From Cymbomonas tetramitiformis (taxonomy: Eukaryota; Chlorophyta; Pyramimonadophyceae; Pyramimonadales; Pyramimonadaceae), in contig LGRX02027263.1 in assembly GCA_001247695.2 (NCBI GenBank), positions 1-64,000 on the forward strand: a stretch of 64,000 nt of DNA, written 5' to 3'. Both the position numbers and the translations under genes were made by a program. Below the pieces are notes generated by a model. That model searched no databases and was not told the DNA's origin. It saw only the letters and a program-made list of their open reading frames with translations. The stretch's first letter is position 1, and the number at the start of each line of letters is the position of its first letter. Shown here one piece after another: positions 5,275 to 64,000 of this stretch.

Positions 5275-5463
5275 ATTAGAACGCGTCTGGAAATAAGTTA
5301 CGCAGCAAGAGCTTCGTAACCCTAAATAGCAACACCTTTATATTATTTTGTGACAGTCGCAATATGTATTCCTGGTGTTTATCTGCGGTATTTGTTTGTT
5401 GACAGACCTATTTTACAAATAGTGAGAAAAACGTCACCGATGGTAATCTTGTTGTTGTAACTT

Positions 5464-13302: not shown

Positions 13303-13323
13303 TGTTAACGCCGTCAAGCGATC

Positions 13324-15844: not shown

Positions 15845-16696
15845 ATGCGTGATATTAAATTGTTGGTCGATTCTCGCGAGCCTAAAAGCGTGCGCGAAGC
15901 GCTAAAGGACAATGGCGTGGAGCATACGGTAGTCACGTTGGACGTAGGAGATTTTCAAATCCTGCATGATGGGCAGCTTATACTCAGCGTCGAACGAAAA
16001 ACCTGGTCGGATTTGGAAAGCGCTCGAATCACCGGCCGTTTCGAAGATCAGCTGAAGCGCGCTCTGGCCAACGCTTGTGAACACACCGCCATGCACGTTC
16101 TGCTCGTCGAGGATCCGAAGGTTAAGTCGGACGAAGAGTTGCGGCAGAATCCCAAGCAGAACAAGGGTATCATGGCGGCTTCGACCTTGAACAGATGCGT
16201 GCTGCAGCGAGGCGTGGGAGTGCTCCGAAGTTGTGACTCGAAAGATACGGCTTGTCTGCTTGCCTGGATCAAACGAAAATGCGAAAGCGAAAAGTTGCTG
16301 CACGAGATCGACGCCGAGGAGACGTACGGGAAAAGAACGATCGACCTGTGTCATCGACCGTACCACGGTGGTGTGATCCACGCGAAAAAACGCAAAAACG
16401 AGGACAACCCCGAGGCGTACTGGGTGAACATGCTCACGGTGATCCGAGGCTCTTCCGAAAAGATCGCGCGCTCCATCACTGCGAACTACTGCGACGCCGC
16501 AGCACTGATCGCGCACGCCGAGAGAGAAGCGAAACGTTCCGGAAAGCCGGACGTGGTGGCGCAGGCGGATGCTCTTTTGGAGCGTATCACGATATTCGAG
16601 TCGAATCGGCGAGTCGGGCCCGCGTTAGCGCGCCGCATAACCGCGTGTCTTATGGGCTCCAGAAAAAAATCAGTCGAGACCCCTGCCGCTCCTTAA
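15845..16696 (+). CDS. ERCC4/XPF-type nuclease
   Basis: A 283-aa protein with the ERCC4 nuclease signature in order: D9-S-R11-E12, G35-D36-F37, E50-R51-K52-T53, D56, G64-R65 and Q69. This is the metal-binding GDX(n)ERKx3D core of XPF/MUS81 enzymes. The C-terminal half (about 200-275) has a helix-hairpin-helix-like stretch (MLTVIRGSSEKIARSI...) as in XPF tandem HhH domains. Family members cut branched or flap DNA, and several large DNA viruses encode versions for repair or resolution of replication intermediates. There is no helicase domain, so it resembles the compact MUS81/archaeal short form. It starts at the first ATG; CATATACG lies about 40 bp upstream as a weak TATA. Confidence 0.88.
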   Translation: MRDIKLLVDSREPKSVREALKDNGVEHTVVTLDVGDFQILHDGQLILSVERKTWSDLESARITGRFEDQLKRALANACEHTAMHVLLVEDPKVKSDEELRQNPKQNKGIMAASTLNRCVLQRGVGVLRSCDSKDTACLLAWIKRKCESEKLLHEIDAEETYGKRTIDLCHRPYHGGVIHAKKRKNEDNPEAYWVNMLTVIRGSSEKIARSITANYCDAAALIAHAEREAKRSGKPDVVAQADALLERITIFESNRRVGPALARRITACLMGSRKKSVETPAAP

Positions 16697-38500: not shown

Positions 38501-41500
38501 TGGCGTTCGCGTCGGCGGTCCATCCGAAGAGCTCCTCACCGTTCGCGGTCTGCTCGAAGACGCGCGCGCGAAAGCGAGAGGACGTGCGCCGGCTGTGCAT
38601 GAGCGGGCGCTGCAGCGAGAGGTCGGGGAAGAGGTTCTGCAACACCTCGCCGGAGCTTTCGCCATCCACCGGCAGCAGCGCGAGATTCGTTCGAATGCCG
38701 ACTCGCACGGTCAGCTGGACCGTTCCGCAAAGCCGCTCGACGTTGCACGTGACCAGCGATACGTTGTGCAGCGCGGCGCCGTCGTCCGGGTCGGAACGGA
38801 GGCACCGACCCGCGCGCGCGTTGCCCACGCTCAGGCCGAACCGGTGGCCGCTCTCCAAGAGCTTGAGGGTGCTGGCCCGACTCGTCCACACGGACGGTCG
38901 CAGAGGATGCTCGGAGTCCTCCTCCTCGAAGAGGGTGGTGTACCCGTCCAGGAGCTCGCGAGCGTCGGTGATGGAGTCGGGCTGCATGCGAGTTCGGTTG
39001 CGGTTGACGGCGTGCAGAAAGGCTTCCGCGTTCGTCAGCGCGTTGGCGCTTCCGGTGGCGTCCTCGTCGAAAGGGTGCGTCGCCTGCTGCATCGCCAAAA
39101 CGGTCGATCGTCCTTTCGGATCGCGACCGAGCACCGAAAACTCCCCCGGCACGTGGGAGTCTTCGTCGTCCTTGCAGGGAACGATCTCGAAGAGCGTGTC
39201 GTTGGCGACCGACGGGTCGCAGACGCCCATGCGTTGATCGGAGAAGCCCTCATGATCGACCCGTCGGCGATACCCGATCCACACGTCGCCGTACTGCAGG
39301 TTCCACGCGCTTCCTCCCGCAGCCTCGTCCGCGAGCGAGATGGTGTCGCCGTTCGCGTAGAAGGACCCCCTCGCGTGCGAACCGTCCGTCACGTCGGGAC
39401 AGGCGCTCGACTCGCCCGCGCGGCCCACCTCGTTGCGCACCAGCTCGCCGGTGCCGTCGAGCACGAGGTAAGCCGAAGTGGTGTCGCAAGATGCAAAGCC
39501 GCTGAGAGGAGCGGCTCTGGCCTGGACGCCTCCGACGGCCGTCAAGTTTGAGAGCGCGCTTAACGTGTGCGTCTCGGCCACGGCGGACGTGGCCGCCGTG
39601 TCGCAAATTTTCGGAACCGCCGAACCTCCGTAATCGTTCAAGAGCTCGTTGTTGCACAAGCTCTGGCGAACGAGGATGGCGAGGTTCAGGTTATCGACCG
39701 CGTCCTTCTGTGGCGGGATCAGGTCGTTGCCCTCGCCGAACTGCTCGCGGCAATACTCGCGTGCCCGGTCGAACGTCAGCGGCGAGAGCACGACCTTGTA
39801 GTCGCCGGTATCGCGCGCGCACACGAAGGGCTTCTCTTGGGTGCAGGGCAGCGTCACCCATTCCGCGAATTCGACGTCCCTTCCCAACCGGCACCCCTCA
39901 CCTCCTTCGCCGTGCACCGCGCAGTGGGATCCGGTGAGCGAGTTGAGCGCGACGCAGTCGAAGGTGCCCGCCGCGTACACGGCCTCGAGCGGTTGCTTGC
40001 CGACGGTCGAACCGTGCATGGGATAGCCCACCGCCCAGTTGTTGTACGTTCGTCTGTCGAGTGCGGAACAGTCGGCGCGTTCCAGTTTGGAGTCCTGTGG
40101 GTGGGGGTCCGTCTCGGAGACGGTTCGATTATCGCGATCGGCGTTTCGCCGGGTGCAAAAGGCGTCCGAGGCGACGGATCCGTCCAGCCGCGTGAAGAGC
40201 TGCCGATTGTAGGACCTGGGTCGGGTGCGAGACCGAACCGAGAGGGCGCCGCTCCGTCGAACTTCGGGCAGGTGATGGCGATCACGAGTCGCCTCGCCGT
40301 ACAGTCCCACGTTACCCGCGGCGTCGAAATCGCCGACCACCTCCTCCTCACCGTCGGTCGACTCGCGCGTGTCCGCCGCGACTCCGTAAGAGAGATGGAC
40401 GTCGTTCTCGAACAGGTACCCCCGAAGGTCGTACAGCCGTCTCGCGCCGACGAGGGCGGACGTCAGGTAGAGATCGTCGTGTCGCTCCACCAGGTAAACC
40501 GTGCTGGATCGGAGAACCGCGGCGTCCATGCCCTCGTACCGGTCTCCCGCAACGGCGGCCTCCTCCCGTGTGAGCGCCTCGAAAGAGCCGTTCGTGTGAT
40601 ACCGTTCGTGAGAGAGACCGGGATCCGCTTGGTAGTGTCGAGTTCGAGAGAGGAACGGCATCTGCGTCGCGTTTGAGCGTTTGGACGGCATGTTCGGATG
40701 CGGAAACGTCCCCTTCGTCTTGAGGAACCGGTTGTCCGCGAGGGAGCGAACTCGAAACAGAGGATCCGCCGCGAGGTCGTCGTCCGCGCAACGCTCGACC
40801 ACGAAGACGCGTTGCGCGATCGGCGTCTTGGTCGACGTCCCGAAAAGCAGCCTCTCCGACCGGAGCGGCGAGAAGGCCACCTCCGACTCGTACACGAAGG
40901 GATCGGACCTGTTTCCTCCCAGCGCCGCACCCGCGCGCCCTCGGAGCGAGCGCGTGACCGAGGAGAACCGCTTCGCCCCGACCCGACCCACCACGTCGAG
41001 ACGATCGGTCACCGGACCCACCGCGCTCAGGTCCGCGTACCCTCGACCTCCGCCCGCGAGGTCGATCACCGTTCCGATGGTGACCCTCGTGACGTTCGGG
41101 GCGCGACCTCGTTGAGTCCAAGGGTAAGGCCACGGTGCGGCTCCCGGGCGGTCGACCAGGTCCGAGGGGAGCAATCGCTCCAGGGCGTTCTTCCTCGCGT
41201 TCGCGTACAGGGAGCGGTAACGATCCATCGCCTCGACGTTCAAGTAAGGAAACGTGCGCAGAGCGTTCAGAGCGCACTTGGCCGCCTCGTGACGCGCCTC
41301 CGCGGCCGCTTCTCGAGCGAGCCGCAGAGGCTCACCGGTCAGGACGGGCCGCCCATCGCTTCGCGTCGTCACATCGCCGCTCGTGGAGGATAACACCTCG
41401 CGTTGCACGTCGGACGCGCGTCGTGAGCAAACGGCGATCAATCGTTTACCGGCAGCGCTCATGTAGGCGAGGTTTTCCATGTTCAACACGTTCGGAGGGT

Positions 41501-44500
41501 CCACGAGAAGCCGCCGCGCCGAGACGTCTTCGATTTCTCCGGTAGCTTCGCTGGGAGGGTTCATCGGAAAGAACACGATCTGCGCCTCGTTCGTGACGCT
41601 TCTCTGCGTCACGAAACCGTGAGGGATCGACCGGCAGGAGCTTCTGGAACGCGAAGGCGCGACGCTCTCCACGACGGTGGAGAAGCCGCAGCGCGTGGCT
41701 GCTTGCGACATCTCTTCGGCGGTGAGAAGGTTGGCGTCGTGACACAGCGTCTGTAACGCGGAAGAGTTGCTCGCGGAGCACGTGGAGTAATCGCCGTCCA
41801 TCTTTTGTCGCCGATAAAGCGCCTTGGAAAAGGCGTACCGTCCTTTCGGGTGCCTCGCGGAAGAAAAGCCGGTGTACAGATAGGTTTCGTCGGTGTACAT
41901 GTCGCATATCCGGGAATCGGAGTCGAGCAGATCGTTAAAAACGGACTCCCCCTCGAAGACGAAAGGCAGCTCGCATCCGCTTTCCGAACTGACCGCGCCG
42001 GACTGATTTCGAAGCGCGACCCGCCCTTCGGCGTCTATGCTGTGCATGAAACCGTACGTCGCCGCGCTCGACGACGCGGCCCCAGAGGCCGACGCGAAGG
42101 TGATCTCGCGAGCGCGCGAGTCCGTCCACTCGAAACGCAGGTTGTGCGCATCCGCGGCCGTGTACGCGAAGGGATCGCTCCCTCGCGCCGTGCAGACCAT
42201 GCGGTACGCGGAACCCTGCAGCGTGAGCAGCACCTCTTCGTCCGCGGCGCAAGTCCCGTTCACGAAGAAATCCGTCAGTCTGTAAACTCCGTCGCCGGCG
42301 TCGCTGAGAGCTCGTACCGTCGCCGAGGAGGCCATGTTCTGCAGTCTGCCATCTCCGACGGCGCACGTCGAAGGGGTCGTATCGGAGGAGGCGACCGAGG
42401 AGGCCGCTCGCAAACTGTGAGAAAGCGCGTCGTCGACGTAGCTCGAGTCGTCCGCGGTGAAATTTCCAACGCCCCCCAAGTCTCTAGGAGCGAGCAGACG
42501 CCACGTCTGTCGCGCCAGACCGAGCACCTCACGACGGGTATCGTTGGAGGTCTCGCCGGTGTAAAACCTGCGAGCGTGAGACGGTAAGGCGATCCGGTAA
42601 CGGTCGGCGCACATGCAGTGAGCATCCATGAAAGCCGCCCCGGTGGCGGCCATGGTCCAGTCGTTCACGCGCGAATCGACGACCGCTTGCAGGCGATCCG
42701 CGAAGGCCTGGTTGGACGCGGAGTCATCATCGTTCAGGTTGTGCAGGCGCCACCCCTCGCCCATGTGATTCGCGCAAAAGTTCGCTTCGCCCAGCTCCGC
42801 GAGCGTGGGAAAGCGGCGCTCCTCCTCCTCGAAGTCGAAGCTGTACGCGAACTCGAGGTGCTCGCCGTCCACTGCCGGATCGTGCTCCGCGGGAACGGCG
42901 TCGGGCGACGCCACGTCCACCGAAAGGGCGTTCAGCACTCGAACCGTTTCCTCCAAGGCGGTTTCCGATGTCTGGGCCGATTCGTGATGAGGCACCTCGC
43001 GTCCGCCGTTGGCGATTCGTTCGAAGTCCGTGATGTCCCGCTCGCGGCAGACGCACGTGGGGCCATCCGCGGTCGCGCCGTCGTCGCACTCCTCAGGGCA
43101 GTACACCGTGTCGTCGGTGTTGCCGCTGTAGCTCGACACCGGGGAGAGCTGCGAGAACTCGCACACGCAGCCCTCCGGGAAGACGTCCCGAGAGTGGTAA
43201 CGCATGTAGAAGCCGCGCATGACCTGCCCCGCGGAGTTGCGGCAGACGGTGTCGTTCGTGACGGGCGGGTACAGCGGATACGGCGGCGGGGGAGACTTCG
43301 GTGAGGCGGGCGGCGCGGGCGGCGGCGGAACGTTCTCGAAGACCCGCGGCGCGCAGTGCCGCACCCGCCGTACCGGAGTCGGAGGGACGTACTCGAACGG
43401 ATCGCAGGAGCATAACGGTTGATGCATCCCCGCTCCGGTACCGCCGACGCTGAGGAAAGCGTTCCACGCGGGGTCCACCGAAGCGCTCCACGTCGCGTTG
43501 AAGGACTGCTCCGGCACTCGACCGGTCCAAGACGGTCCTTGGGCGAGCAGGTCCACCGTCGGGGAGAGCATGGACTCCTCCACCGTGGAATTGAGCCTTC
43601 GTCGCACCACTCGAACCGGCAAGCGCATCACGCGCGCTTCGTCGGAAACGATGAACGTGGCCGACTGACGCACGACGTCGTCCGCGATGTCCGTGACGGC
43701 GACGAGGCTGCACTCCACCTGCAGCCCGTAGCCTTCCGACACCAACCCGTCGGTGTATTGGTCCGCGCTGAGGCTGCACCGTCCGCGCATGCCGAAGTCG
43801 TAACTGACGTTGGCGCCCTCGCGGTCGAGCAGCGTCACCTGCAACCCTCGGCACACCGGATACCGCACCTCCGACTCGCCCTCGCGGGTGTAGTACCCGA
43901 GGGATTCGTCCCAACGGGAGCCGCTCGCGCGCGCGGAGACGAGGTAGGAGAGCACGGTGTCCCCGCTCTCGTCCAAACGCATTCGTCTCGGAGCGTACCA
44001 TTGGGAGGTCGGGCAGGTGTGCAACGTGCGCTCGTTTACCGGCAGGGACCGATCGTCGTCGCACGCGCACCGGTCCTGATTCTCTTCCGAGAAGGTGAAA
44101 ACGTTGGGCGACGTCCTAAGATTCGTGGTGTCGACGTTTTCCGTGTCCGCGAGGGAGGGATACCCCGAAAGCGTGCACATCTCCGCGTCCGGGTCGTCCT
44201 CGCGACCCTCCGGCACGGGACACAGACCTCGAGTGAGATCGCTCCTTCGGTAAGCGTCGTACACGGAAATGAAGAAGCACTCCACGGTAAGGTTCGTGGG
44301 CGCTTCGTTGTGCATCCACTGCTTGTTCGTGTAAAGAAAGGTGAAGTTGCTATCATCGCCCACCGCTTGTCGGTATCGGACGTAATCGGTCACCGGATCG
44401 TGCGGATCGAGGTGGTGGTCGCACCCGTAGCTCTGCCACGTCTCCAGACCGATTCCGTTGTGCACCTCCGAGTCGTCCTCGGCGTTCGTCGCTCGCACCG

Positions 44501-46619
44501 CCGGCATGAAGCACTTGGGCGGCGGCGGTGGAAAGGGCGGCGGTGCGGGAGGCGCGGGATATGCGGGGGGGGCGGGGGGCGTTTGAAAAGGCCCGAAGAG
44601 GGAGACCATGGCCAACCGGTAAAAGAAGCGCGCGTTCCCCGCGATGCCGCGCACCGCCGAGCGCACGACGTCCGCCTCCTTATCCAAATCCAAGGACTGC
44701 ACCGCGTCGGCCAGGCGCATCAAAAGGGCTTCGCCCGCGTCTATGACGTAGTTGCGCGCGCAATAGTGCTCCGAGTCGACGTCGCTCCCTTCCCCCGCTG
44801 TCGTGCTCGGATATTCCGCGTCCTGCTTGGGCACGCACCCGACGGTGTTCGGGGTCTCCAGCAGCTGATGAGAGAGGCCCTCCCGGCCGCCGCCGTCGTC
44901 TCCGCTGAGCTGCTTCCAGCTATCGCGCAGCTCGTACAGGATCGTGGAGACGTACGCCACACACCTACCCACGATGCGTACCGATCCGCCCAAGGCCTGA
45001 AGCGTGTGCCTCGGAATCGCGAAGACGGCGGGCGGGGTGGCTCGACACAACTCGGTGGTCGAGTTGTACGTCGCCTTGGGCACCGACCACAACTCGGAGC
45101 ACACCTCCGACATATTCTCGCCCACGGTGTCCACGACCAGAACGTACTGAAGGTAGTTAAACACGGACATGTACCACTCGTCGGCCGCGTCCATCGCGAA
45201 CCCGACGAAGTCCACGAAAGACGTGAAAAGACCGTCCATGTCGTACGTCCGGTAGGATTCCGCGTACGAAGGACACAGCAACCACGGCGCGTGGTGCAGC
45301 TGCGTGTCCACCGGCACCCCATCCGGGTTGGACCCTTGGTATCCGGAATAGGAGTTCCAACAGATGCTGTACTTCATCTCGGTCCCGTCGCCGGTGAAGA
45401 ATCGTTCGCGGAAATCCTCCGGTTGCGCGACCGCCGTGCCGTATGTTCGTAGGTGAAGCGCGAAGGCGAGCACGTCCTCGCGTTTTCGCCGCTTTCCGCG
45501 TAGACTCATCATGTCCGAAGCGAGGTCCGAAACGCTGTTGGCGATCGAACGGGAGCGAAGCAGATAGTGCACGGGCATCTGAAGCGTTTTGACGAAAAAG
45601 ACGAGGCCCGCGTTCATCGCGATGGGAAAGTTGTAAGCGTACGGAACGCAGTTCGTTCGGACGTCGGCATCGTAGTCGCACATGGCGCAATAGATGTGCT
45701 CCGGGTCGTACGTGTTCAACGCCTCCACGTAACGGTCGGTGCCGCGAAGAGCCCCCGTCAAGTTCTGCGTGTAGCACCACTTATTGAAAACCTCGTACTC
45801 CGAAAGCGCCTCCGGCGTGGGAAAGTAATATCCGTCCGGGCGCACCCGCAAGCTGTCCGGCGGATAGTAGGACGACACAGCCAGCACGCTCTCCCAAAAT
45901 CCGCGGAGCATGCCGCACGGCTCGATGAGGAGCTCTCGCGATACCCAGAAGGAGCGCTGCAGGGAGAGAAAGAGTCTCAAAAAGTTGGGATCGCCATCCA
46001 AGAAACCGTCCACCACCAGCCACTGATGTACCGCGCTCATAAAGTCGCCCATGACGTTGCCCACTGCGGACACGCCCTCCAGGACGAGACGGACGCCCAA
46101 CTTCAGAAGCAGCTTCGTCGCGATGGACGACACGCCACGGGTCGCGATAGTTATCGTATCGTACACTCCCACCGCCATCGAAAATATCAGCGAGAGACAG
46201 TGCGCCAATATCTTGAATCCGTACACCACGGTGTCGTGCAAGTCTTCGTACATCATATCAACCTTTTGCAGGATAACGTGCCCTTGGTAGCTGACAACGA
46301 ACGCCGCGAAGGAAAGGAGTATGATGCCGAGCAAAACGTATCGATACTGCAGCATGTACGTGTACAGCCTCTGAAGCGCCTGATACCACAGGTTGATCAC
46401 CCACATCGCGGAGTTGGTTAGAGTCTGCACGAAGTCTCGACTTTGATTCTCCACGATGTGATCGATGTACCCTCGATAGTCGTGATAGGACACCTTGTGA
46501 GCGGAATGCTTGTAAATCTCGATGTAGACGTAGTACACCATCAGGTACGACAGTAAGGTGTAGATGGACGCGCACACCATCGCGGTCGGAAACAAGATAA
46601 AGACAGCGGTGTCCGCCAT
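29589..46619 (-). CDS. Giant membrane-anchored surface protein with C-type-lectin-like domain, 5,676 aa
   Basis: A single 17-kb open frame starting MADTAVFILFPTAMV. The N-terminus has membrane helices at about 6-33, 94-113 and 132-157. A huge Cys-rich, N-glycosylated region follows, cut by proline linkers near 677-703, 1097-1117, 2957-2968, 3965-3985 and 4127-4147. About 2190-2270 reads as a C-type-lectin-like domain (W-x-V-G-Y-P, spaced Cys, WVTLPC, KPFVCARD). Two Cys-patterned stretches near 4030-4077 and 4256-4290 resemble PAN/apple modules. R1702-R-L-L is a site-1-protease-like motif. The TATA at 46819 and a CT tract precede the start. A donor-like GAG|GTAGGC near the 3' end (29699) could splice to the 3,724-codon ORF. 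The domain content suggests adhesion or host-glycan binding. Intron-free coding of this size argues for a viral gene. Confidence 0.88.
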   Translation of the reverse strand: MADTAVFILFPTAMVCASIYTLLSYLMVYYVYIEIYKHSAHKVSYHDYRGYIDHIVENQSRDFVQTLTNSAMWVINLWYQALQRLYTYMLQYRYVLLGIILLSFAAFVVSYQGHVILQKVDMMYEDLHDTVVYGFKILAHCLSLIFSMAVGVYDTITIATRGVSSIATKLLLKLGVRLVLEGVSAVGNVMGDFMSAVHQWLVVDGFLDGDPNFLRLFLSLQRSFWVSRELLIEPCGMLRGFWESVLAVSSYYPPDSLRVRPDGYYFPTPEALSEYEVFNKWCYTQNLTGALRGTDRYVEALNTYDPEHIYCAMCDYDADVRTNCVPYAYNFPIAMNAGLVFFVKTLQMPVHYLLRSRSIANSVSDLASDMMSLRGKRRKREDVLAFALHLRTYGTAVAQPEDFRERFFTGDGTEMKYSICWNSYSGYQGSNPDGVPVDTQLHHAPWLLCPSYAESYRTYDMDGLFTSFVDFVGFAMDAADEWYMSVFNYLQYVLVVDTVGENMSEVCSELWSVPKATYNSTTELCRATPPAVFAIPRHTLQALGGSVRIVGRCVAYVSTILYELRDSWKQLSGDDGGGREGLSHQLLETPNTVGCVPKQDAEYPSTTAGEGSDVDSEHYCARNYVIDAGEALLMRLADAVQSLDLDKEADVVRSAVRGIAGNARFFYRLAMVSLFGPFQTPPAPPAYPAPPAPPPFPPPPPKCFMPAVRATNAEDDSEVHNGIGLETWQSYGCDHHLDPHDPVTDYVRYRQAVGDDSNFTFLYTNKQWMHNEAPTNLTVECFFISVYDAYRRSDLTRGLCPVPEGREDDPDAEMCTLSGYPSLADTENVDTTNLRTSPNVFTFSEENQDRCACDDDRSLPVNERTLHTCPTSQWYAPRRMRLDESGDTVLSYLVSARASGSRWDESLGYYTREGESEVRYPVCRGLQVTLLDREGANVSYDFGMRGRCSLSADQYTDGLVSEGYGLQVECSLVAVTDIADDVVRQSATFIVSDEARVMRLPVRVVRRRLNSTVEESMLSPTVDLLAQGPSWTGRVPEQSFNATWSASVDPAWNAFLSVGGTGAGMHQPLCSCDPFEYVPPTPVRRVRHCAPRVFENVPPPPAPPASPKSPPPPYPLYPPVTNDTVCRNSAGQVMRGFYMRYHSRDVFPEGCVCEFSQLSPVSSYSGNTDDTVYCPEECDDGATADGPTCVCRERDITDFERIANGGREVPHHESAQTSETALEETVRVLNALSVDVASPDAVPAEHDPAVDGEHLEFAYSFDFEEEERRFPTLAELGEANFCANHMGEGWRLHNLNDDDSASNQAFADRLQAVVDSRVNDWTMAATGAAFMDAHCMCADRYRIALPSHARRFYTGETSNDTRREVLGLARQTWRLLAPRDLGGVGNFTADDSSYVDDALSHSLRAASSVASSDTTPSTCAVGDGRLQNMASSATVRALSDAGDGVYRLTDFFVNGTCAADEEVLLTLQGSAYRMVCTARGSDPFAYTAADAHNLRFEWTDSRAREITFASASGAASSSAATYGFMHSIDAEGRVALRNQSGAVSSESGCELPFVFEGESVFNDLLDSDSRICDMYTDETYLYTGFSSARHPKGRYAFSKALYRRQKMDGDYSTCSASNSSALQTLCHDANLLTAEEMSQAATRCGFSTVVESVAPSRSRSSCRSIPHGFVTQRSVTNEAQIVFFPMNPPSEATGEIEDVSARRLLVDPPNVLNMENLAYMSAAGKRLIAVCSRRASDVQREVLSSTSGDVTTRSDGRPVLTGEPLRLAREAAAEARHEAAKCALNALRTFPYLNVEAMDRYRSLYANARKNALERLLPSDLVDRPGAAPWPYPWTQRGRAPNVTRVTIGTVIDLAGGGRGYADLSAVGPVTDRLDVVGRVGAKRFSSVTRSLRGRAGAALGGNRSDPFVYESEVAFSPLRSERLLFGTSTKTPIAQRVFVVERCADDDLAADPLFRVRSLADNRFLKTKGTFPHPNMPSKRSNATQMPFLSRTRHYQADPGLSHERYHTNGSFEALTREEAAVAGDRYEGMDAAVLRSSTVYLVERHDDLYLTSALVGARRLYDLRGYLFENDVHLSYGVAADTRESTDGEEEVVGDFDAAGNVGLYGEATRDRHHLPEVRRSGALSVRSRTRPRSYNRQLFTRLDGSVASDAFCTRRNADRDNRTVSETDPHPQDSKLERADCSALDRRTYNNWAVGYPMHGSTVGKQPLEAVYAAGTFDCVALNSLTGSHCAVHGEGGEGCRLGRDVEFAEWVTLPCTQEKPFVCARDTGDYKVVLSPLTFDRAREYCREQFGEGNDLIPPQKDAVDNLNLAILVRQSLCNNELLNDYGGSAVPKICDTAATSAVAETHTLSALSNLTAVGGVQARAAPLSGFASCDTTSAYLVLDGTGELVRNEVGRAGESSACPDVTDGSHARGSFYANGDTISLADEAAGGSAWNLQYGDVWIGYRRRVDHEGFSDQRMGVCDPSVANDTLFEIVPCKDDEDSHVPGEFSVLGRDPKGRSTVLAMQQATHPFDEDATGSANALTNAEAFLHAVNRNRTRMQPDSITDARELLDGYTTLFEEEDSEHPLRPSVWTSRASTLKLLESGHRFGLSVGNARAGRCLRSDPDDGAALHNVSLVTCNVERLCGTVQLTVRVGIRTNLALLPVDGESSGEVLQNLFPDLSLQRPLMHSRRTSSRFRARVFEQTANGEELFGWTADANATLSSSERYERDSTLRSTGTEGAFGINVSYGTRGAVDSALEPGDRLRSRAFGGIHASADAANFSGGRGVMHFQTFLHALNETTFPCRSSRVTDASFVYDRCDRVVEEGIAAPAISEVVAPSNCGAVTSRSDSHCTMLAILTGRSLGFVEGTHARPDTFESVRLLRLDTAWNATDDEEIPDFFPDSSDTRHLSVLASRSNRRSLWYPAAQEIRDELQTHTQSDENDILASQGWLYTCAGHTLKFEPASSLENPPAPATPPAPVLTEKQNTNQARFQVSAGGVLTQVSSANEVLQRRGIAEAYVTSNAEHSRLNFQRNSDDRQPYRPHSAYNTYSFTGVEALTATVEYGASERSEETVSACRETEETRCDMYLRDVYQDGSMTDTRARQNMRIVNGASDASDQRPDLDLHYVGGPRLRMPNEYTSGWQEPVENPERDGVPMWIKGYSKNQTGLCGPNDVVYAYESRASSYGSTDPYNNYVTWPHAECIEEASLYLEELAESECGHPSRVAIDDEEGLQSDPSLDEASMDYRRMHMDETHASRYCDFDTVSLEYGSTVMTMSQEEACDIPDGHAHCDNLSPDDSSTRTRINRRQCKQVVNAVHHYCPASCGHTVWEAPTRYIEGGGKLRLRDAADETNRDGKRLCTCAQTAPDTHCRPVTSNPTSDEYTPLTEEAKKRPEVTFMESFLEQWKSIENPDQVDYNNVMPVVDMWNDAGAHGGSKYDTRFLFRNEGAGWEQDEGNVGPGRILVTFPYNNEHGDDLDHDPADGCNSSSTVMCANARAYSRSDRRHFGMSRERMSDFSNKETFKRVSDLVADLCDDITHAYRRSNDTKGQEFGQPCMGFSAQDMYVYDGAPYDLDDMLSEKCLEDDACSEHRYQMMTSHYYPNYQTWRHHRGDNASGWSASRDGLLYALDKTRGDNPAGVYSDYVFQSDHRTSQDGMYDADEFENAFPTDLAGRGAIRAFLFTLYGKARYSTKEFGVRRKQSLETLHVSHAPPWTRNSPQRDAGSSRSGRAGASRKGDRPDVGASYEAFLPGGASAGSRADGDSKEFVHSRHSGHLYTAHTAVDMRERYYYPAFTYRRMSNDTLDVLLSKGMIDAATRERANARGDRSLPIEVLWPPPEVTMWTRVAEAERARVPSRELFGAFDAPTADYADVNGAWRLKHSPHKYTKAPADASCADGVCADGPGEYFDHTEGSIRPAAPPEFGLLWNRYLRNRMPTCYRDNTQGDFIFERAEQTKEDCERLRPAYGRDEGAIGPEYIAPPPAPPRPGNPSPPPDKPYYDYMPYEITSNGDGKDSGYIGDTICFGTASESRSDYFNSDDDKWLDSLDACEAKCSEEDIVHGAPYIWCSTFNAQRLTRNGDDHYYRCVTMSVGYTYQIAEGRMSCDYWDDQTDENSCIVSREKSKKNWYLTQLRSGTRSSPNPPSPPQYPPVPPVPPPVYVGVGKYHNFDVYDDAQFLTRITGSDPDHYLSATHDEDVLSMACDYGGEYEDCVYNEQSDPLYFLISKTVYHTYSADSISPEDHLKTDGVNCTYYQGASVDTNDAQVFSEDSCFSRCESTKDCEFYHLLFARDGSDYCLTCYLFRRAIGWEYIAFGQATRGTHRNEVCAQIGVTSQLNGLVQLVQYDEENADVTAQSQAVFGGHGPGVRAVNTSISSFFAAHKSLQVESSRMANSESRWVNKNACKYNTHGHDFMRPDYDHRPVDPAQGDATISTEEAQDICFAMGCVHYVRCGVSTGQNAVDGSDGAYFYIDDENFASYGATCETGDQKKCVQGILRTDMRAPASSNWLERHRRLYRSSWPYALAADSYLQDNAFRPKADTYQNLTNLVHPENDGGYLDGNAFWQASSFSWAFSPKHRCYPKSCEWNATEDTSYTLSRAMFHSSAMVTPALMNLTGATDEQLQHHSNEAYFRRWVKYGLSIALNQLGDGVLASLYREFDAFGAWVCGEDNANTTARRTNRCNTRSSDTDVGIVGPRIVFLTDKAREGVENGDSLWAELLSIGRRVCRAINENTLGNLKEDPPYPSDIVECDTPACEEELTYMVPGWVTCKGVGASSLVQGVDSDRYASGSRLPRTREVSLTFGLDMISTSTSSSASFPSLHVSLLDADRTNNSYFMFTNCSDERWRGVKQTAEWVCSHDEECSNRQFGTCESEMSVEDVSVQSTTTRRGGGEKPVYDVSDAEFDMSTYSVNLCSTHHNRVTRTLYFSDLNTVSKYRTNGTLEVGEDGHLECSSEYCVNNRIVERWDDMPMMGTCVVLAAPVDSKLFASDHGFLWGPSVTLRKGDVVDHATNHADQYSLSAHFTDGNHLLDSSDDHAEERTLLAKNDANTSRVYGTLNADTLADTLSLVFDGYFPKAYDHDNYDWQMLSSGFRARGYLQYKDAEHATTTPSYWYTKRAILPVFLYEIYDVHHYEFNSYNMFHTDSAHSQYIYGTTITSLGANSSAIMHGLTKPDAAWDRTVYRSFLDTAYGSESPFTRSSDAQKDAWNDLRYTFVELYDAAAAQLSSNSFEYTRRSPVTTAYSPPTPPDSYSFEFRGYQARIFNGDGEALNEYLDNYDDDKVQQDMCETFGLRDRGTVRDDGDRTDSETGTHDPEFETFNWEVYYRFTCHHRASGCSNPVDVQSDDVKTYGPFRNAYFDHVRTTDGLTRLTAYRVTGDHAHAVLVFPKERDEQVCESENTELRVYRRVGTVGTFHAIEPRSLSGDVAAERASFYDAPFPFGNTSQSADFPMSECYNTTDDNPDVLRLFMRNDGLRFEDDPNLASSRSYSRSQTERYRYGPCDVLSTHSDTSPSRSYQAIDTRLERMFSFLTNRTVSTKLGKSVFEANELYTNRSVNYDNHTFQETGTTLPFLAFINYWNEKYTETLFNAHDRWKQAVTGFLDDVPFESGGSLDSCSFRSVEDYEGRRLVRELMVDGDAALDNHVQNLVDRENPPEVGFVCHDPDEREREINFDFRKSTRHGRSAHYLSVGG
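29657..29672 (+). repeat. (CT)n tract near end of giant ORF
   Basis: Inverted relative to the GA tract at 29511. It is translated as DEREREI in the giant protein's last 30 codons, downstream of the donor candidate at 29699. Confidence 0.7.
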
Positions 46620-46951: not shown

Positions 46952-47368
46952 ATGACGTTTATGTCCGAGCTCGCGAACGCCGATACTGCCATCAAGCAGG
47001 CATCCCGAATTCTCTCGTTGCGAGATAACGCGCCAAATTCGATATGCCCAAATCTGTTGGGAATGCAACAATGTAACGAAGCTCGCATCTCGCGCCCGAG
47101 ATCGTTCGACACGGTTTGTACATGTTGGAAAACCGATTCAGACAGTTCGCTTTCGTCGGAGGATCTGGCGTATCTACCGATGAACCGTATCAAAATATGT
47201 CATACCAATTCAAACATGAGCGTGATCCAACTGTTCGACGACGACGACCGGCCCGGAGTGGTGCCGAGGGAATTAATTTGCTCACACGCCCGACGGGCGT
47301 GGTTTTTCCCCGTTTGTTCCTGTTCGACGTGCACCTTCGAAATGCACGCGAGTTCTTCGGAAACGTGA
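46952..47368 (+). CDS. Hypothetical 138-aa protein overlapping an RNA element
   Basis: The frame begins MTFMSELANADTAIKQASRI and is Cys/Ser-rich, with an acidic LFDDDD near residue 98. From about residue 100 the frame runs through RNA element copy 3, and that part has poor protein character. The genuine gene may therefore end differently, for instance by splicing, or not exist. No family recognised. It is convergent with the 47393 gene and shares the TATA at 46819 with the giant gene. Confidence 0.35.
   Translation: MTFMSELANADTAIKQASRILSLRDNAPNSICPNLLGMQQCNEARISRPRSFDTVCTCWKTDSDSSLSSEDLAYLPMNRIKICHTNSNMSVIQLFDDDDRPGVVPRELICSHARRAWFFPVCSCSTCTFEMHASSSET
47249..47307 (+). ncRNA. Hairpin/pseudoknot/U-tract RNA element, copy 3
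   Basis: CGGCCC, loop GGAGTG, GTGCCG (47249-47266) forms a stem with one mismatch. The loop can pair with TGCTC (47279-47283) using G-U pairs. A perfect ACGCCC-GAC-GGGCGT hairpin (47286-47300) and GGTTTTT follow. The second hairpin is identical to copy 1. Confidence 0.65.
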
Positions 47369-47934: not shown

Positions 47935-49081
47935 ATGTCGGCTCAACCGGAGGTGAAGGTCGCTCACTTTAGAGGCGCCGAAGGCGTCGAAGAAGAAGCA
48001 AGTATGGACAAAGTGTGCATAACATCTGAGGACCCTAAAGTGCCGATCGCATGTTTGGAGGGTCTGAATACGAGCATCGTTGTACATTTCCGTATGGACG
48101 GTGTGAGCGAGATCGATCTTTCGAGCGATGGAATCGACAAGTTGCTCAAAGACCGTCTGTTACACAGCGAGCACGCCAAGAAATATTACGGTGTAGCAGA
48201 CGTACCCATGGCGTACGATAAATGCATAGTGAACAATATCACGATTTGCGACGTGTACGATTTCAAACCTAAGCATGAGAATGCGACTTCCATTTACGAG
48301 ACGCGGATGAAAATACTATCCAATCCACCTCTGATAGACAATCGTGGATTCTTTTATAAATCAATCGATCAAGCGCAATCGACGGTCGAAACTTGCGATC
48401 CTTACTTTCCTATGTTCACTATGAATGGACGCAAAGATGTCTCGATATATCAAAACATCGACAACGTCGAGGAGAAGCATCGATTTATCGCCGATGCGAA
48501 TTTGATGTACCTGAGCGACACGCAAGAGACGGAAAGGGATAAAATTGGAAAGTTTCGCAACAAACGTGCGTCGTATATCTATCTCGTCGCCTTTTCGTAG
48601 ATCTTCCTGCTTTTGTACGCATCGTGCTTTAGTTTTGTGTCTGACCATTCGTCGTGTTGTCGCAGCGTATGTTTTCTACTCGCAGCTTCCGGACATGTCT
48701 CATCGCGCAATAATTTCGAAGACGGCCACCGAGACCATCGAGTTGCTTGATTACGCATGCAAGTCCCCCCTCTTCGAATTCGGCGAGGTCGGAAAAATCG
48801 AATATCTTTCTTGGAAAGATAACGACTTGTACACTGATAAGGACGGTTACAAGTACATGCCGTGGGAACTTTTTCAGAAGATTAAGCAAACTTATAGGAA
48901 TTTGAGAGGAAACTACAACTACACGCATGACCTCACCAGCGTCAAGATACTTTTCGACGACTATGAAGTTGGGCGTGGGGAGGACAAATCCTGGAACGGA
49001 AAGATAAACGCCGGCATGTCGATGAAATTGTCATTCTTCGTGCCTATCAACCATGCACCCGGGGTTCCCCTTACGGGTTAA
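47935..49081 (+). CDS. Spliced gene, possible structural protein, 348 aa
   Basis: Exons 47935-48565 and 48666-49081. The 100-nt intron starts GTGCGT and ends TTGTCGCAG, and joining restores one frame across ...FRNK|PYVFYSQLPD. Without splicing, the first frame stops at 48600 and the second lacks a sensible start. The protein is soluble, with many beta-type stretches, a strongly acidic N-terminus, and a C-terminal domain ending in SFFVPINHAPG. Composition is less GC-rich than most neighbours and similar to the gene at 61830, which is also spliced. This pattern would fit capsid or triplex-type proteins, but I recognise no family and this remains a guess. The TATA run is 66 bp before the ATG. 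Confidence 0.75.
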
Positions 49082-57807: not shown

Positions 57808-57893
57808 ATACAGATCCGTAAGACATGCTCTTATCGATCGAAGTGCGCGAACCCGACCAACGTCCGAGAGACCGAAGGACGACCGTTGTAAAG

Positions 57894-60848
57894 ATGACCG
57901 ACGAGGTGACCATCGCATCCGCGGAGCGCCCGGACTCGTCACAGCTGCGATGCGCGCTCGATTTATCTCGCACGCTTACCGACGCCTCGTTCGGTGAGCT
58001 CGTGTACCGCACGGCGCAAGTCATCGCGTTCGCAAGAGGTGGTGAACGGTGCGTGAATCGCCGACAACCGAGCGAGGTGCTCTCCGTGTTCTCCAAACAC
58101 GACAGCGCGCACAGCTCGGCGATCGCCTTTTTGCAACGGCCTTTTGCTCGAGACGCCGTTCTCACGCCGAACGATACCGACCATTTGGAGAAGGCGATCG
58201 ATATCGCGGACGCGTACATCTCAGCGCAGGCGGATCTGATGGAGACGCAGTTCGAGTCGGGACATCGACTCCGAGGCGTTCATTTTTTACCGCTCCGTAT
58301 TTCTCGCCAGCTCGGAAGGAATCCGCAGCGCTGGTTCGAGTTTCTTTCCGGCGCCTACGCCGATGCGCTATTCCACCGACAGTACGACATCTGTTCGGCG
58401 ACCGCCGTGCACATCGTACCCCTCGTCGCCGAAGCATCGGTCGATTCGTCTCGTCGGTTCCCCTGGGTGAACGCCTTTCTGCACATCAGAACCTGGGTCG
58501 AAGACACGCAAGGGAAGATTCGCAGACACGCACGAGCGGTGGCCCACTTATTGCGCGGGCAGCCCTCCCAATACGATCTCTCGGAACAACCGGACACGCT
58601 TGTCGATATCGACCGCGTCGTCGACGAACTGAAGCACGCCTTCGAACGTGCCGACTACGAAACGGGTAAACGTTTTCTCACGACTGAACGTATCGACGCA
58701 CGCTTCTATCGCAGCACGCGCGACGATGACGTCTGGCGCGACGACGACGCTTTCTGCCTGTACGTGTCCGTCGGCGACGCGTATTTCCAAGATGAGCGTA
58801 ACTGGTTGAGCGACGCGGTCACCGCTCGCTCGAAGGCGGACATCTTGCGGAATATAAAACATTTCGCGACACGACGATCCACCTTGACCGCGTTCGGATG
58901 TGTCGACGAGTTGGAAAACGAACAACCTGGCGGAGACTCGACAGATCTCTTGACGCTCTTGCGCTCTCGCGCGGTCACCGACCGGATCGCGGCGAGGGTT
59001 CAGCGTCAGCGGACGCGTCTCATCGGAAGCAAAAAAAGTAAGAGCACGCGGGAGGACGCGCAGCCCGATCAAAAACGCGCACGCTTTGTGTCCGTTATGA
59101 ACGAAGCTCAGCGAGACTGCTGGGGATGGTGCTCGGCTCAGCTTGTCAGTCATCACACGAGCGCGCACATCGACGAACGCTTCGTCTCCCTGGTCGCCTC
59201 GTCGCAACAGCTTTCTATCCGGAAAACGCTCGAACGACCGATCATCACGGACTTGCCCGACGACAGAACCACGGTCGGCTTTCGGTATCTGCCTTTCGTG
59301 TGCTCGGTGAAGCTGAACGAGTCGCACCGTCGAAACGAGTTGACGGCACGCCTGTACGGAGTGGTTTGCGTTCCCGGAGATGTGTCGAACAAGGATCTGA
59401 ACGGAGGGTGCGTGTTTCCCGGAAAGGTGGTGTGTGGCGTCATCGGCACGGCCCATCAACTGCGCAACGAAGACACGGAGCTGAGCGGAACGGCGCACGA
59501 ATGGTGCGAACGGCCCGAGAGCACACCGTCCACGCTTTTCCCGTTTTACCTGGATTGCAGCTCTCGACCCTCGGTGCATATCGACGGTCGCCGAACGAAG
59601 TGCACCTGGATACCACACACCGGCTTTTGGAAACTGCTCGCGGTGAAGCCCGTCTATCGCGAAAATTGTGACCTGTCGGCGATTCGTCGCTCGACGGATA
59701 TCGAACTGCACGAGACGGATGAGACGGAAGCGAACGAAGCGGCGCCCATCGGATACGTGTTCGGCGGGACCACGGAAGATACCCTTCACGCTTTGCCGCA
59801 AAGAGTGAGATGCGCGGTGTCAAACTCGCTTAGCGAGCTGCACTCGCGGAAGAAGACGGACGCGCTCGACCGTGCCGGGGACCGTTTCCCGGATATGTGG
59901 TACGGTTACGCGGCCACCGTCTGCGCGGTCGAGCTTCTCGAGACACTCGACTTCACGCTGTGCTCGCATATGGTTCAACAGCTGCTCGGAGTCCGCTTAA
60001 ACATCGTGCGAGGGGACGGATCGCGCTTCGAAAACGATCGGTTGAACGTCGCGCTCGGTTCGACCTTCACGGTCAAGCGAGATGCGTGGGTCGACGATCT
60101 CACTCTGATCCGGCGATGCGACAGGTATCACGACCAAGACGACCACCCCTTGCACGAGTCACTCTTTCACGCCGCTCGTCTCGCGATACCGTCATCGAGT
60201 GAATCGCGTCTGGGATTCGAGAGCGCCGCCGATGAGAAGCGTCGCGAAACGGAGTATTACGCACTGCGACAGTCCGAGAAAAAAGGGGCGCCGTTGGAAA
60301 CGAACTGGCACGTTATGGTAGAACGTCACGACGCCGCTCGCGTCTCGCGCAGTCGTTCGGGCTTACTTTCGCGCAACCCTCGCTCCGTCGCCGACTCCGC
60401 CTGGATATTCGCGCGATGCTACGTCAACCCGTGCAGCGCGTTAATGTTTCCGAACGCGGAGAGTCTTTCCGAGTTCGAGGCCATTAAACGCTCCCAAGGA
60501 AGGGAAGGGTGCGTGCGCTTCGCTTCCACGGGCATGACTCTACGCTGGAGATGCGATCGGCGGTCGGACGGGACTGCCCGTGTGGAAACGTGCGTGCACT
60601 CCACAGAAGCACGACTGGACCGCACCCGACTCGAGATCGACGGGGAGGACGTGCAATATCCGCCCAACTCTTGCTTGGACCTTTACGAAGGCGAGGAGCG
60701 CGGAAAGTATTTTGAACGAGTTCACTCGTCGGAAAGAACGTGCGATACGGTCACCGAGCGTTGCTGGAGGTTACTGAGGATCGATGTGGGCTCTACGATA
60801 CGCATCGCCACAAGCTGCTTGTGCGTCCAACTCATTCTGGTACCCTGA
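57894..60848 (+). CDS. Large hypothetical protein, 984 aa
   Basis: Begins MTDEVTIASAERPDSS. An ATG at 57825 is in frame but only 18 bp past the TATA, so 57894 is preferred. It is a soluble, multi-domain protein with a helical N-terminal half (ADAYISAQADLMETQ..., HIRTWVEDTQGKIRR) and a beta-rich Cys-containing C-terminal half (LYGVVCVPGDV..., KVVCGVIGTAH). I see no Walker, polymerase, protease or zinc-ribbon pattern. The frame's last 20 codons are atypical; a GTGGGC...CACAAG mini-intron at 60786-60814 would extend it to 60997. It is divergent from the JAMM gene and convergent with the ESCRT-III gene. No family recognised. Confidence 0.75.
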   Translation: MTDEVTIASAERPDSSQLRCALDLSRTLTDASFGELVYRTAQVIAFARGGERCVNRRQPSEVLSVFSKHDSAHSSAIAFLQRPFARDAVLTPNDTDHLEKAIDIADAYISAQADLMETQFESGHRLRGVHFLPLRISRQLGRNPQRWFEFLSGAYADALFHRQYDICSATAVHIVPLVAEASVDSSRRFPWVNAFLHIRTWVEDTQGKIRRHARAVAHLLRGQPSQYDLSEQPDTLVDIDRVVDELKHAFERADYETGKRFLTTERIDARFYRSTRDDDVWRDDDAFCLYVSVGDAYFQDERNWLSDAVTARSKADILRNIKHFATRRSTLTAFGCVDELENEQPGGDSTDLLTLLRSRAVTDRIAARVQRQRTRLIGSKKSKSTREDAQPDQKRARFVSVMNEAQRDCWGWCSAQLVSHHTSAHIDERFVSLVASSQQLSIRKTLERPIITDLPDDRTTVGFRYLPFVCSVKLNESHRRNELTARLYGVVCVPGDVSNKDLNGGCVFPGKVVCGVIGTAHQLRNEDTELSGTAHEWCERPESTPSTLFPFYLDCSSRPSVHIDGRRTKCTWIPHTGFWKLLAVKPVYRENCDLSAIRRSTDIELHETDETEANEAAPIGYVFGGTTEDTLHALPQRVRCAVSNSLSELHSRKKTDALDRAGDRFPDMWYGYAATVCAVELLETLDFTLCSHMVQQLLGVRLNIVRGDGSRFENDRLNVALGSTFTVKRDAWVDDLTLIRRCDRYHDQDDHPLHESLFHAARLAIPSSSESRLGFESAADEKRRETEYYALRQSEKKGAPLETNWHVMVERHDAARVSRSRSGLLSRNPRSVADSAWIFARCYVNPCSALMFPNAESLSEFEAIKRSQGREGCVRFASTGMTLRWRCDRRSDGTARVETCVHSTEARLDRTRLEIDGEDVQYPPNSCLDLYEGEERGKYFERVHSSERTCDTVTERCWRLLRIDVGSTIRIATSCLCVQLILVP

Positions 60849-60982: not shown

Positions 60983-61714
60983 TTAATTACGAGTTGACAG
61001 GTTTCGTGTTTCGACCTTGTCGGAGACAAACAGAGCGGATGGTACTGTCGGGAACGCGATGTCGTCGGCGGTATCGGACTCCTCGCGCGCACGCTTCGAT
61101 ACGGCGACGTTAGAAACAGACGACGGTATGCTCTGTGTAGAAGGAGCCTCGATCCGAGGCTCCGCCGAGTCGTCACTTTTAAACAATCGCTCCAGCTCGT
61201 TTTCCAACTCTTCGTGATCGACGTTGGTTTCGAAGCTGGCGCCGATAGCGTCGTGCATCTCGCGAGACGTTTGCTGCAAGTCGTTAAACGTGTCGGAAAC
61301 GTCGTCGACCGTATTCAAATTGGATGTGGTGGTGACGAGCGCATCCTTGACAAAAACGTTGGCCGCATCGAGAGCGTCCATCGTGACGCACATATCGTCG
61401 CTCTGTCGAATACTGTCGAGAGTGGTGCGACACACGTCACACAAAGCGCGCGTTCGTGAAAGTTTACGTTCCACCCCCTTGCGTTTCATCAGTTTTACGT
61501 AAGCCCCCGCTCGATTATTGGAGCTTACGTTTTTCGCGATTGTCGCGTCGAGTGAGCGGATTTGCGCCTCCATGGACCGAATTTCCGCATCGTGTATCGC
61601 CACCTGCTTTTCTAGCGTTTCTTTCGTTTGCACTTTGCTGTACGCCGGTGCCACGCGTGCGATGCATCTCTTCCAAAAACGATATATCAACGACTGGCAA
61701 CCGCTACGCGCCAT
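60983..61714 (-). CDS. ESCRT-III protein, Snf7/CHMP4-like
   Basis: A 243-aa protein with Snf7-family layout. A basic start is followed by a long charged helix (KETLEKQVAIHDAEIRSMEA), the helix-2 hallmark A-Y-V-K-L-M-K-R-K-G-V-E-R-K-L (71-85; compare ALKRKKxxExQL in CHMP4), and further helices with the D-V-S-D-T-F-N-D-L pattern (138-146). An acidic HEELENELERL helix follows, and a C-terminal FPTVPSALF (221-229) resembles the MIM2 motif that binds the AAA ATPase VPS4. ESCRT-III filaments cut membrane necks from inside during budding. It is intron-free and under the shared TATA at 61748. It could be captured from a host; the divergent N-terminus (Cys and Trp instead of a myristoyl site) suggests long residence. 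Confidence 0.85.
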   Translation of the reverse strand: MARSGCQSLIYRFWKRCIARVAPAYSKVQTKETLEKQVAIHDAEIRSMEAQIRSLDATIAKNVSSNNRAGAYVKLMKRKGVERKLSRTRALCDVCRTTLDSIRQSDDMCVTMDALDAANVFVKDALVTTTSNLNTVDDVSDTFNDLQQTSREMHDAIGASFETNVDHEELENELERLFKSDDSAEPRIEAPSTQSIPSSVSNVAVSKRAREESDTADDIAFPTVPSALFVSDKVETRNLSTRN

Positions 61715-61747: not shown

Positions 61748-61755
61748 TATATATA
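61748..61755. promoter_or_regulatory. Palindromic TATA run, bidirectional promoter candidate
   Basis: TATATATA, 34 bp from the minus-strand ESCRT-III start (61714) and 75 bp from the plus-strand ATG at 61830. Confidence 0.7.
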
Positions 61756-61829: not shown

Positions 61830-64000
61830 ATGTCGCATATCGCTACTTCGAATGTCCGGGCGTCCTTTCGAAGTATAGGAGAGCATGTTGATAAGATTTT
61901 AGGCACAAAACACTACGAAATCGATGTCGACCTAAAAAAGGTCTACCGTACTGCCGATTATAACAAGTCGAAAGCCGAGCAAGAGCTGATAAGTAACCTT
62001 TACCCATTTTTCTATTGGGACATCGACGTTCACCTTCTTTCGCTGCACCCTCCCGAAGACGGTAGTGAAAATGCGATGAATCTCTCCACCACAAAATGCT
62101 GCAAGAATACTTTCAAACTAAACCGACGCGAACTTTTTTACACATTTGGGCTATATTCGAATCAACCACTCACTTACGAGATCACCGAGTTTTTATTGGT
62201 CGACCCGACGACAAAAGAAGTGGTGCAGTGTATAGTCAAACTTCGCGAATCAAAACCCAAGATGCAGCTTCTGATACCGGACACCGTGTTTCGACAAACA
62301 CGGGGATGTTGCATAGACTTGGCGCACTTCGCGCCGAGCGTCACAAATAGTGAAACGCTCCGCCACATCATGCGATGGATGCTCGCACAAGCTAACGAAG
62401 TACCCTATTTCGCAGACTCTTACACGATCTTCAACGACCTGCTCAATAAAGGGGATATAACGGGGAACGCGACGTCCGATTACATCGTGTACATCCGGTG
62501 CTTACCGAACCGCGCTCAATTCACGAATCTGCTTTCGCGAGGTACAGGCGCGCTGCACGATCTTCACGCTCGCGTTCGATTCACCGTGTCCCACCTTTTG
62601 CTAAGCTATTCTATGCGTTTTTTTTCGCAGGTTTCTTCCCGGCACACACGCACCACGACGAATTAAAAGAAATCATCATGTTTCAAAAATTGAACGACTT
62701 TGTTCGCAACGACCGGCAGCTCAAAGAGTTGTCCATTTTCGCCGAGGCCCGTTACAAAGCCCCGAAAAAAGAAAAAACCATGCCCGTCGGGAGTATGAGT
62801 AAATCAAGTTACTCGGCCAGACGCTGGGTCGAAGACGAAGCCCCGAACATTAGGTTTGTAAACCTCACATCTAACTCAACCCACCTCACAAATCCGATCG
62901 AGGATTGCGATGTCCGTGCCACCTCGAGCACACCGTATCACTTTAAACGATGGCGATTTTTGGGAAACCGTGCCGGACCCGTGAGATTCACGAGATCGAG
63001 GAAATCCGATCCAGAACCGGTACCCGGTTTTATGTCTGGTGATTATCAATTACGCGAATACTTCGAAAAGTCCGAAGAGACGCGTGTCGTCAATGAATTT
63101 GTCGGACAGATTCAGAATTTGCGAATGGCACGATTACCTCGTGCGTTTTACTTGGAATTCGAGCGCGAAAACTACGCGCACACGTCGTCACCGGATTCTT
63201 TTCCCATCGAGTATGAAATCAAGTGGACCGGCCACAAATATCTACCGAAAGTTGATCGATTGTATCATCGACCGCCGGACCTACACATTAAGCTCACAGA
63301 CTTTAAGCTTGTCAAATCTCATTTTCTTCTAAGACATAGCGGTCACGCGCTCAAAGAGTTTGGATTGTTCGTGCATAAAGATTTTATAGATAACTTATGG
63401 ACTTCAAAAATCCCCCCTGCAGCCGACTTGGGGTTTCAGGTAAACCGCGACGAGGAAGGAAATTGGGTCGAGATTTCTTACGCCAAGTCCGACAGTGCCT
63501 TTCCGTCCAGAACGAACTTGCACACGGAAAGCGCCCTCGAGTACGAAGCTGCCGATTACGAAGTTGCCCGTCTAGCACGAGCGGTGCTTTATAACTGGAC
63601 CAGCTTGGAATCACTCAAGAAGAACACCGTGGAGGAACACATTTTCCAAAAAGCGTTCCTTTTTACGATGTTCATAAATACGCTTTACGTAAAAAAACAA
63701 ACAAAGACGTCGTCACCGAGAGACGAGTCGGACTTTGAGAGCAAGAGACGGGCGATACTAGAGCATTACGCAACTGGTATTCTTGTCTACAAGCCGGGGC
63801 AGAAGTCGTGCCTTCAGGAAGATTACAACACCGTGATCGAAAACAATACCAGGCATATCAAGATACGACTACATACTAAACATTTAAATTATGACCACGA
63901 CCATTACGCCGAGTTGTTCCGAGAGTATCCCGTGTACGCGAACGAGGAATGCATGCGCAAACACGACACTCGATCTCAACTCAACCGATTGTTGTATCGG
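61830..64000 (+). CDS. Large spliced gene, partial at window edge, possible major structural protein
   Basis: Exon 1 is 61830-62541 (MSHIATSNVRASFRSIGEH...). An 89-nt intron 62542-62630 starts GTACAG, has TGCTAAG and a T-rich tract, and ends TTCGCAG. Exon 2 is open from 62631 to the last base. The splice keeps frame (SRG|FFPAHTHH) and explains why the first frame stops at 62666. At least 693 aa, with no stop seen. The protein is soluble, beta-rich and Asn/Tyr-rich, and less GC-biased than neighbours, like the 47935 gene. Size, intron and late-type promoter would fit a capsid protein of a herpes- or mirus-like virus, but I cannot identify the fold. It carries RNA-element copy 5 antisense within exon 2. 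Confidence 0.78.
62772..62815 (-). other. RNA element-like sequence antisense in coding exon, copy 5
   Basis: On the minus strand it matches copy 1 at 32 of 34 positions across TTACTCATAC, CCCGACGGGC and TGGTTTTTTCT. GAGTAA and TTACTC are complementary as in copy 1. The second hairpin carries two mismatches, and the plus strand is coding here. Confidence 0.5.

Follow-up and report, generated by a model that had tools for sequence, protein, structure and literature searches.

The locus and its gene neighbourhood

The window analysed here is a stretch of 64,000 nucleotides from contig C18211 (103,520 bases) of the Cymbomonas tetramitiformis assembly, which comprises 25,745 contigs and 851.7 Mb (~852 Mb). 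Towards its right-hand end, a single open frame with an ATG start (60983..61714, minus strand) encodes a 243-residue protein with matches to the Pfam Snf7 family and, at the profile level, to Snf7/CHMP4-class ESCRT-III structures in the PDB. The gene recurs at at least 32 places on 32 contigs, each match being a single open frame; 29 of the 32 matches contain no stop, and the other three have one only at the protein end. Twenty-five of the 32 copies were extracted for the analysis of conservation; they represent 20 different proteins and about ten lineages, with identities down to 24%. The same protein, residue for residue, is encoded by a second copy on a 160-kb contig, where 3707 of 3729 surrounding bases are equal, and reverse transcriptase and integrase domains mark a retroelement ORF at ~68–74 kb of the window’s own contig. 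There the open frame (L023, 4042–9999) also matches RNase H, a PHD finger and a C-5 cytosine methylase. Given at least 32 copies in an ~852 Mb assembly, the near-identical second copy and the retroelement on contig C18211, the DNA of the window belongs to a family of endogenous viral elements and is not that of a free virus.

The Snf7 gene is flanked on one side by a convergent ORF of 1007 residues (57825..60848, +) and on the other by a divergent gene, probably of two exons, which runs past the end of the window (61830..64000, +) and for which an intron scan gave a candidate intron of 89 nt at 62542–62630. By tblastn, the 1007-residue ORF adjoins Snf7 in six of the 24 other copies (L002, L003, L004, L005, L006 and L027), these copies being 37–100% identical, while the remaining 18 have no match to it at E≤1e-3 within the ~1.5-kb flanks searched. 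One or both pieces of the divergent split gene are matched in L002, L003, L005 and L006. Between the two divergent genes, just upstream of the Snf7 ATG, lies the palindrome TATATATA (61748..61755, unstranded), which is matched 16 times across the window, with an expectation of 0.07. These occur at ten separate places, seven intergenic and three inside listed ORFs, where the non-ORF share of the window is only 12%, and the palindrome is found again in the last 9.5 kb of the contig. By raw count, a TATA-like hexamer lies no more than 120 nt upstream of 21 of 25 Snf7 copies. We suggest TATATATA is a promoter-like element of the viral gene cluster, and its overrepresentation and position lend support to the viral promoter mentioned in an earlier note on this DNA. 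That note’s broader description of a viral gene cluster stands as far as the recurrent gene block and TATATATA are concerned, and has to be amended in that the cluster sits in one of at least 32 endogenous copies, on a contig with a retroelement.

Further features lie elsewhere in the window. At its opposite end, the palindrome GTCATCGATGAC has 11 exact copies, all in the first 5.7 kb (200–5700), ten of which form five pairs, 48–75 nt apart, flanking ORFs of ~0.5–1 kb. The GC content of this segment is 42–47%, compared with 50–66% in most of the rest of the window, and it has the appearance of a separate element that carries a repeated spacer of its own. A 177-nt unit follows at 5880–6410 in three tandem copies, the second 96% and the third 82% alike to the first. 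The ORF at 13523–14185 (−) has a DNA polymerase delta subunit 4 domain (Pfam PF04081, E=8e-9; PDB POLD4, E=0.03); we speculate that, if the virus has no polymerase of its own, such a POLD4-like protein could serve to bring in the replicase of the host. An ORF at 15845–16696 (+) encodes an ERCC4/XPF-MUS81 family nuclease (Pfam E=4e-16), with PDB matches to an archaeal helicase-nuclease, MUS81 and XPF. Two copies of a 60-nt repeat, at 13323–13382 and 47248–47307, are 87% alike. The repeat ends in the hairpin CGCCCGACGGGCG followed by a run of T, resembling a signal for transcript ends; the hairpin core alone has two matches against 0.73 expected, compatible with chance. On the contig that carries these viral genes, a 799-residue ORF (L025, 5691–8087, −) has a trypsin domain (E=1e-35).

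Family, class and predicted fold of the protein

The earlier note, which had described a Snf7/CHMP4-like ESCRT-III protein, proposed a search against the Snf7 family as a check. This gave a match to Pfam PF03357 over residues 31–192 of the 243-residue ORF (E=1.4e-11, 44.8 bits), above the curated cut-off of 27.3 bits. Searched against the PDB as a single sequence, the ORF gave weak matches to both CHMP4b (E 0.056) and Asgard ESCRT-IIIB (E 0.23). A profile of five relatives matched yeast SNF7 at E=1.3e-5, with the remainder of its eight matches at E≥0.04, and a profile of ten lineages produced 17 matches at E≤10, four of them below E=0.01. The best nine of the 17 are SNF7 (four), Shrub, CHMP4b, Vps60 and CHMP5 (two), at E-values of 1.4e-5 to 0.094, and CHMP1, CHMP2, CHMP3 and IST1 chains are absent from all 17. 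It is because the best profile matches all fall within the first group, with none in the second, that we assign the predicted product to the Snf7/CHMP4 class of ESCRT-III (class B: Snf7/CHMP4/CHMP5), and the Pfam score and PDB profile matches together bear out the identity first proposed. The finer features described with it are also found: the KRK signature (residues 77–79) lies inside helix 2 (residues 68–108), aligned to the KKKK of yeast Snf7, and the distal part is acidic, with a net charge of −16 over residues 111–243 as against +11 over residues 1–110.

Structure prediction, the second check proposed, gave an AlphaFold (AF2) model from five sequences with a mean pLDDT of 68.8 and a pTM of 0.36. 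Helices are modelled at residues 4–26, 31–64, 68–108, 112–162 and 167–179, followed by a tail without predicted structure. The hairpin of helices 1 and 2, which carries the KRK signature, spans residues 31–108 (61391..61624, −), and pLDDT by block is 89–98 over residues 31–100, 70 over residues 101–110 and 70–86 over residues 101–160. Foldseek searches of the PDB with this model, an α1-α2 hairpin with further helices, returned ESCRT-III proteins for all of the top 14 matches, Snf7 included, at weak E-values: rank 1 is Asgard ESCRT-IIIB at E=5.2e-3, no PDB match reaches E≤0.001, and the list holds both ESCRT-III classes (class B and CHMP1/2/3/IST1). CHMP4 proper has a C-terminal helix that binds Bro1/Alix; the tail of the viral Snf7 is modelled with no helix beyond residue 179, but in a region where pLDDT is mostly <50.

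Preceding the hairpin, residues 1–27 (61634..61714, −) form a basic amphipathic helix with cysteines at positions 6 and 17. The hydrophobic moment of residues 10–27 is 0.63, the joint highest of the protein with residues 88–105, and 418 of 20,000 shuffled N-termini have one at least as high. A cysteine within residues 2–6 is found in 25/25 copies and 10/10 lineages, against 1.2 expected by shuffling. This N-terminal cysteine may be a lipid anchor, through S-acylation.

At the other end of the protein, residues 219–230 (61025..61060, −) contain the motif IAFPTVPSALFV. The pattern [LIVMF]Px[VIL]PSx[LIVMFP], which describes its FPTVPSAL core, arises in 108 of 200,000 shuffles of the tail. All 25 copies examined (32 were found) carry an [FLM]PxxP tail motif, and in each of them [FLMIV]Px[VAGIL]P[SR] starts 12–23 residues before the end, for which the chance is ~1% per 45-residue tail; since this pattern and that of the N-terminal cysteine were drawn up after the sequences had been seen, and the copies are related, neither set of counts represents independent events. 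P222 and P225 are invariant across the ten lineages, while the surrounding tail has diverged and only 15–17 residues are invariant in the whole protein. The published form of MIM2 is phi-LP-VPS-xLP with acidic places (PMC11218997); in FPTVPSAL, F replaces L and an acidic residue stands at neither of the two acidic places. The tail resembles a MIM2, as had been said of FPTVPSALF, and the rarity of the motif in shuffles, its presence in every copy examined and its two invariant prolines speak for a putative VPS4-recruiting element.

Viral ownership and the mirusvirus question

An ESCRT-III gene of the host, whether taken up by the element or adjacent to it, and now performing a host task, would also account for a Snf7 frame in algal DNA. 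The window does lie within an ~852 Mb assembly, and the eukaryotic Snf7 family is represented there by further matches that run exon by exon (C11484, C7662 and C4755), which we call host on account of that exon-wise matching. Against this origin, the 32 viral-type matches are single open frames on as many contigs, and the 1007-residue neighbour is shared with six other copies. Among the matches listed, the best to four host exon pieces are 30% over 47 residues for the window protein and 38% over 53 residues for the L032 type, and a profile search of 5849 word-sharing candidates found no protein outside the family at E≤10. We regard a host gene as very improbable.

The last 9.5 kb of the contig hold histone and TBP genes, both at 94–98 kb (E=1e-15 and 6e-38, respectively), as well as one for a ClpP-like protease (E=2e-17). 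We take the histone and TBP genes to be viral, although all three genes could in principle belong to the host. Four lines of evidence, namely the recurring neighbours, TATATATA, the TBP, histone and ClpP-like protease on the contig, and the low likeness to host exons, thus argue that the Snf7 gene belongs to the viral element. Calculated with our own script for NG86, dN/dS is 0.17 for the L001–L003 pair of lineages and 0.08 for L007–L008, the latter at saturated dS, with two further pairs lacking a usable dS; in five pairs of recent copies it is 0.25–0.59, from very few changes. This pattern would fit selection during virus replication with some relaxation after integration.

As to which virus, the core functions of mirusviruses outside the virion module include TBP, heliorhodopsin, RING, histone, Snf2 and Snf7, and, according to the passage in Medvedeva et al. 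2025, Snf7 is not identified in nucleocytoviruses (PMC12768974). Cymbomonas has been described as harbouring heliorhodopsin-bearing elements with mirusvirus-like capsid genes (PMC10675990). From Snf7, TBP and histone on one contig, together with candidate introns at 48566–48665 and 62542–62630, the element is very probably mirusvirus-like. The label is held at that strength because Pfam models, which are not specific to mirusviruses, recognised no HK97-fold capsid, terminase, portal or triplex protein in the window ORFs scanned and 18 of the 35 ORFs of the rest of the contig.

Proposed role and comparison with known systems

The usual course for enveloped viruses is to enlist the ESCRT-III of the host by way of adaptor motifs. 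We think it rather probable that the locus encodes a CHMP4/Snf7-type ESCRT-III protein of a mirusvirus-like large DNA virus, repeatedly endogenised in a Cymbomonas-type green alga, which is membrane-bound and recruits host VPS4 for envelopment or egress. Family, class, helix order, charge split, cysteine, MIM2-like tail, recurring gene block and promoter-like element were computed, and it is membrane binding, polymerisation and VPS4 recruitment that we infer. The viral Snf7 would bind membrane through its amphipathic, possibly S-acylated N-terminus, and would open and polymerise through its core at the neck of a forming bud. The MIM2-like tail would then call host VPS4, with constriction and scission following where the virus needs them, be it virion envelopment, nuclear egress or exit. 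Deletion of the MIM2 of HCMV pUL71 leaves growth normal, with no defect (PMC11218997), so scission that depends on VPS4 does not necessarily follow from a MIM2. Hints of an enveloped particle come from two giant minus-strand ORFs, 18391–29565 (3724 residues) and 29589–46619 (5676 residues), which have membrane-protein features in the form of TM-like segments and, by raw count, 35 and 51 NxS/T sites, respectively. Both ORFs also contain proline-rich linkers, and similar linkers occur in green algal wall proteins.

The Walker A pattern [AG]xxxxGK[ST] is absent from the 50 non-overlapping ORFs of the window, so no VPS4-type ATPase is seen there and the motor would be that of the host. The self-supplied membrane scission that had been proposed for this gene consequently goes too far; the arrangement resembles a filament supplied by the virus and a motor supplied by the host. 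The same absence of Walker A would suit a decoy or regulator that enters the ESCRT-III polymers of the host or sequesters VPS4, thereby stalling host traffic, abscission or membrane repair, and such an inhibitor would likewise need the core helices and the VPS4-binding-like tail. A pure decoy would, however, need less than the N-terminal cysteine, core and tail motif that are kept through ten lineages to 24% identity, and we consider this function unlikely. The site of action could also be confined to the nuclear envelope, with the protein serving egress from the nucleus, or its resealing, in a nuclear-replicating virus and having no part in cytoplasmic envelopment. For mirusviruses rich in introns, reproduction in the nucleus has been predicted (PMC12768974), and the window has two candidate introns, both of which, however, are products of an intron scan; we judge a purely nuclear role to be rather doubtful.

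If the preferred reading of a membrane-bound, VPS4-recruiting viral Snf7 is correct, the mirusvirus-like group may carry part of its own tool for wrapping or releasing particles, which would bear on how mirusviruses exit the nucleus or gain membrane. Having its own filament subunit, with a conserved N-terminal cysteine and a tail like those that recruit VPS4, such a virus group would also provide a clean test of which tasks of the filament are essential and which can be left to the host.

Compared with eukaryotic CHMP4/Snf7, the viral protein has the same core fold, basic helix-2 patch, acidic second half and MIM2-like tail, and differs in its ~20% identity in the Foldseek alignments and its conserved N-terminal cysteine. 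It is not the first ESCRT-III protein found to be encoded by a virus: Snf7 is already published as a core mirusvirus function (PMC12768974), and the herpesvirus proteins pUL51/pUL71 are ESCRT-III-like (PMC7289601, PMC11218997). The Mirusviricota Snf7 (PMC12768974) and that described here are alike in being encoded by large DNA viruses that also have genes for TBP and histone, whereas here the elements are endogenous, reside in a green alga and gave no recognised capsid gene in the ORFs scanned. The two mentions of Snf7 in the main text of that paper, both in one passage, are silent about class, N-terminal cysteine, MIM2 and gene neighbours. The published mirusvirus-like repeat elements of Cymbomonas come from the same alga, have sporadic TBP genes and, in the representative one, are flanked by retroelement genes; the words Snf7 and ESCRT are absent from the main text of that account. 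Among the open-access journal papers listed in our searches, we found no treatment of the class, tail, N-terminus or pUL51 relation of mirusvirus Snf7; the one that mentions both mirusviruses and ESCRT concerns Borgs. New here are the N-terminal cysteine and MIM2-like tail in all 25 copies examined (of 32), and the dN/dS of 0.17 in one lineage pair.

The closest comparison outside the mirusviruses is with the herpesviruses, which share their placement in Duplodnaviria (PMC12911909). Their pUL51, recognised as ESCRT-III-like by structure, and pUL71 have a helical hairpin, a palmitoylated N-terminal cysteine and a disordered tail (PMC7289601, PMC11218997, PMC11381400), and HCMV pUL71 has a MIM2 that binds VPS4A (PMC7289601, PMC11218997). 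No pUL51 chain is among the 17 PDB matches at E≤10 to the viral Snf7 profile, which detects no sequence homology between them. A single ESCRT-III gene of a common virus ancestor, encoding a lipid-anchored, VPS4-recruiting CHMP4 that is still recognisable in the algal elements and has eroded in herpesviruses beyond what sequence comparison can recognise, could have given rise to both mirusvirus Snf7 and pUL51/pUL71. We put this forward as a long shot; if true, the branch of Duplodnaviria that infects eukaryotes would ancestrally have encoded a scission subunit of its own. With some ten lineages of the viral Snf7 gene, this one alga offers a ready data set for asking whether pUL51/pUL71 represent mimicry or inheritance. 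What the two systems appear to have in common is the combination of a hairpin, an N-terminal cysteine and a MIM2-like tail, the cysteine and the motif being carried by every one of the viral Snf7 copies compared.
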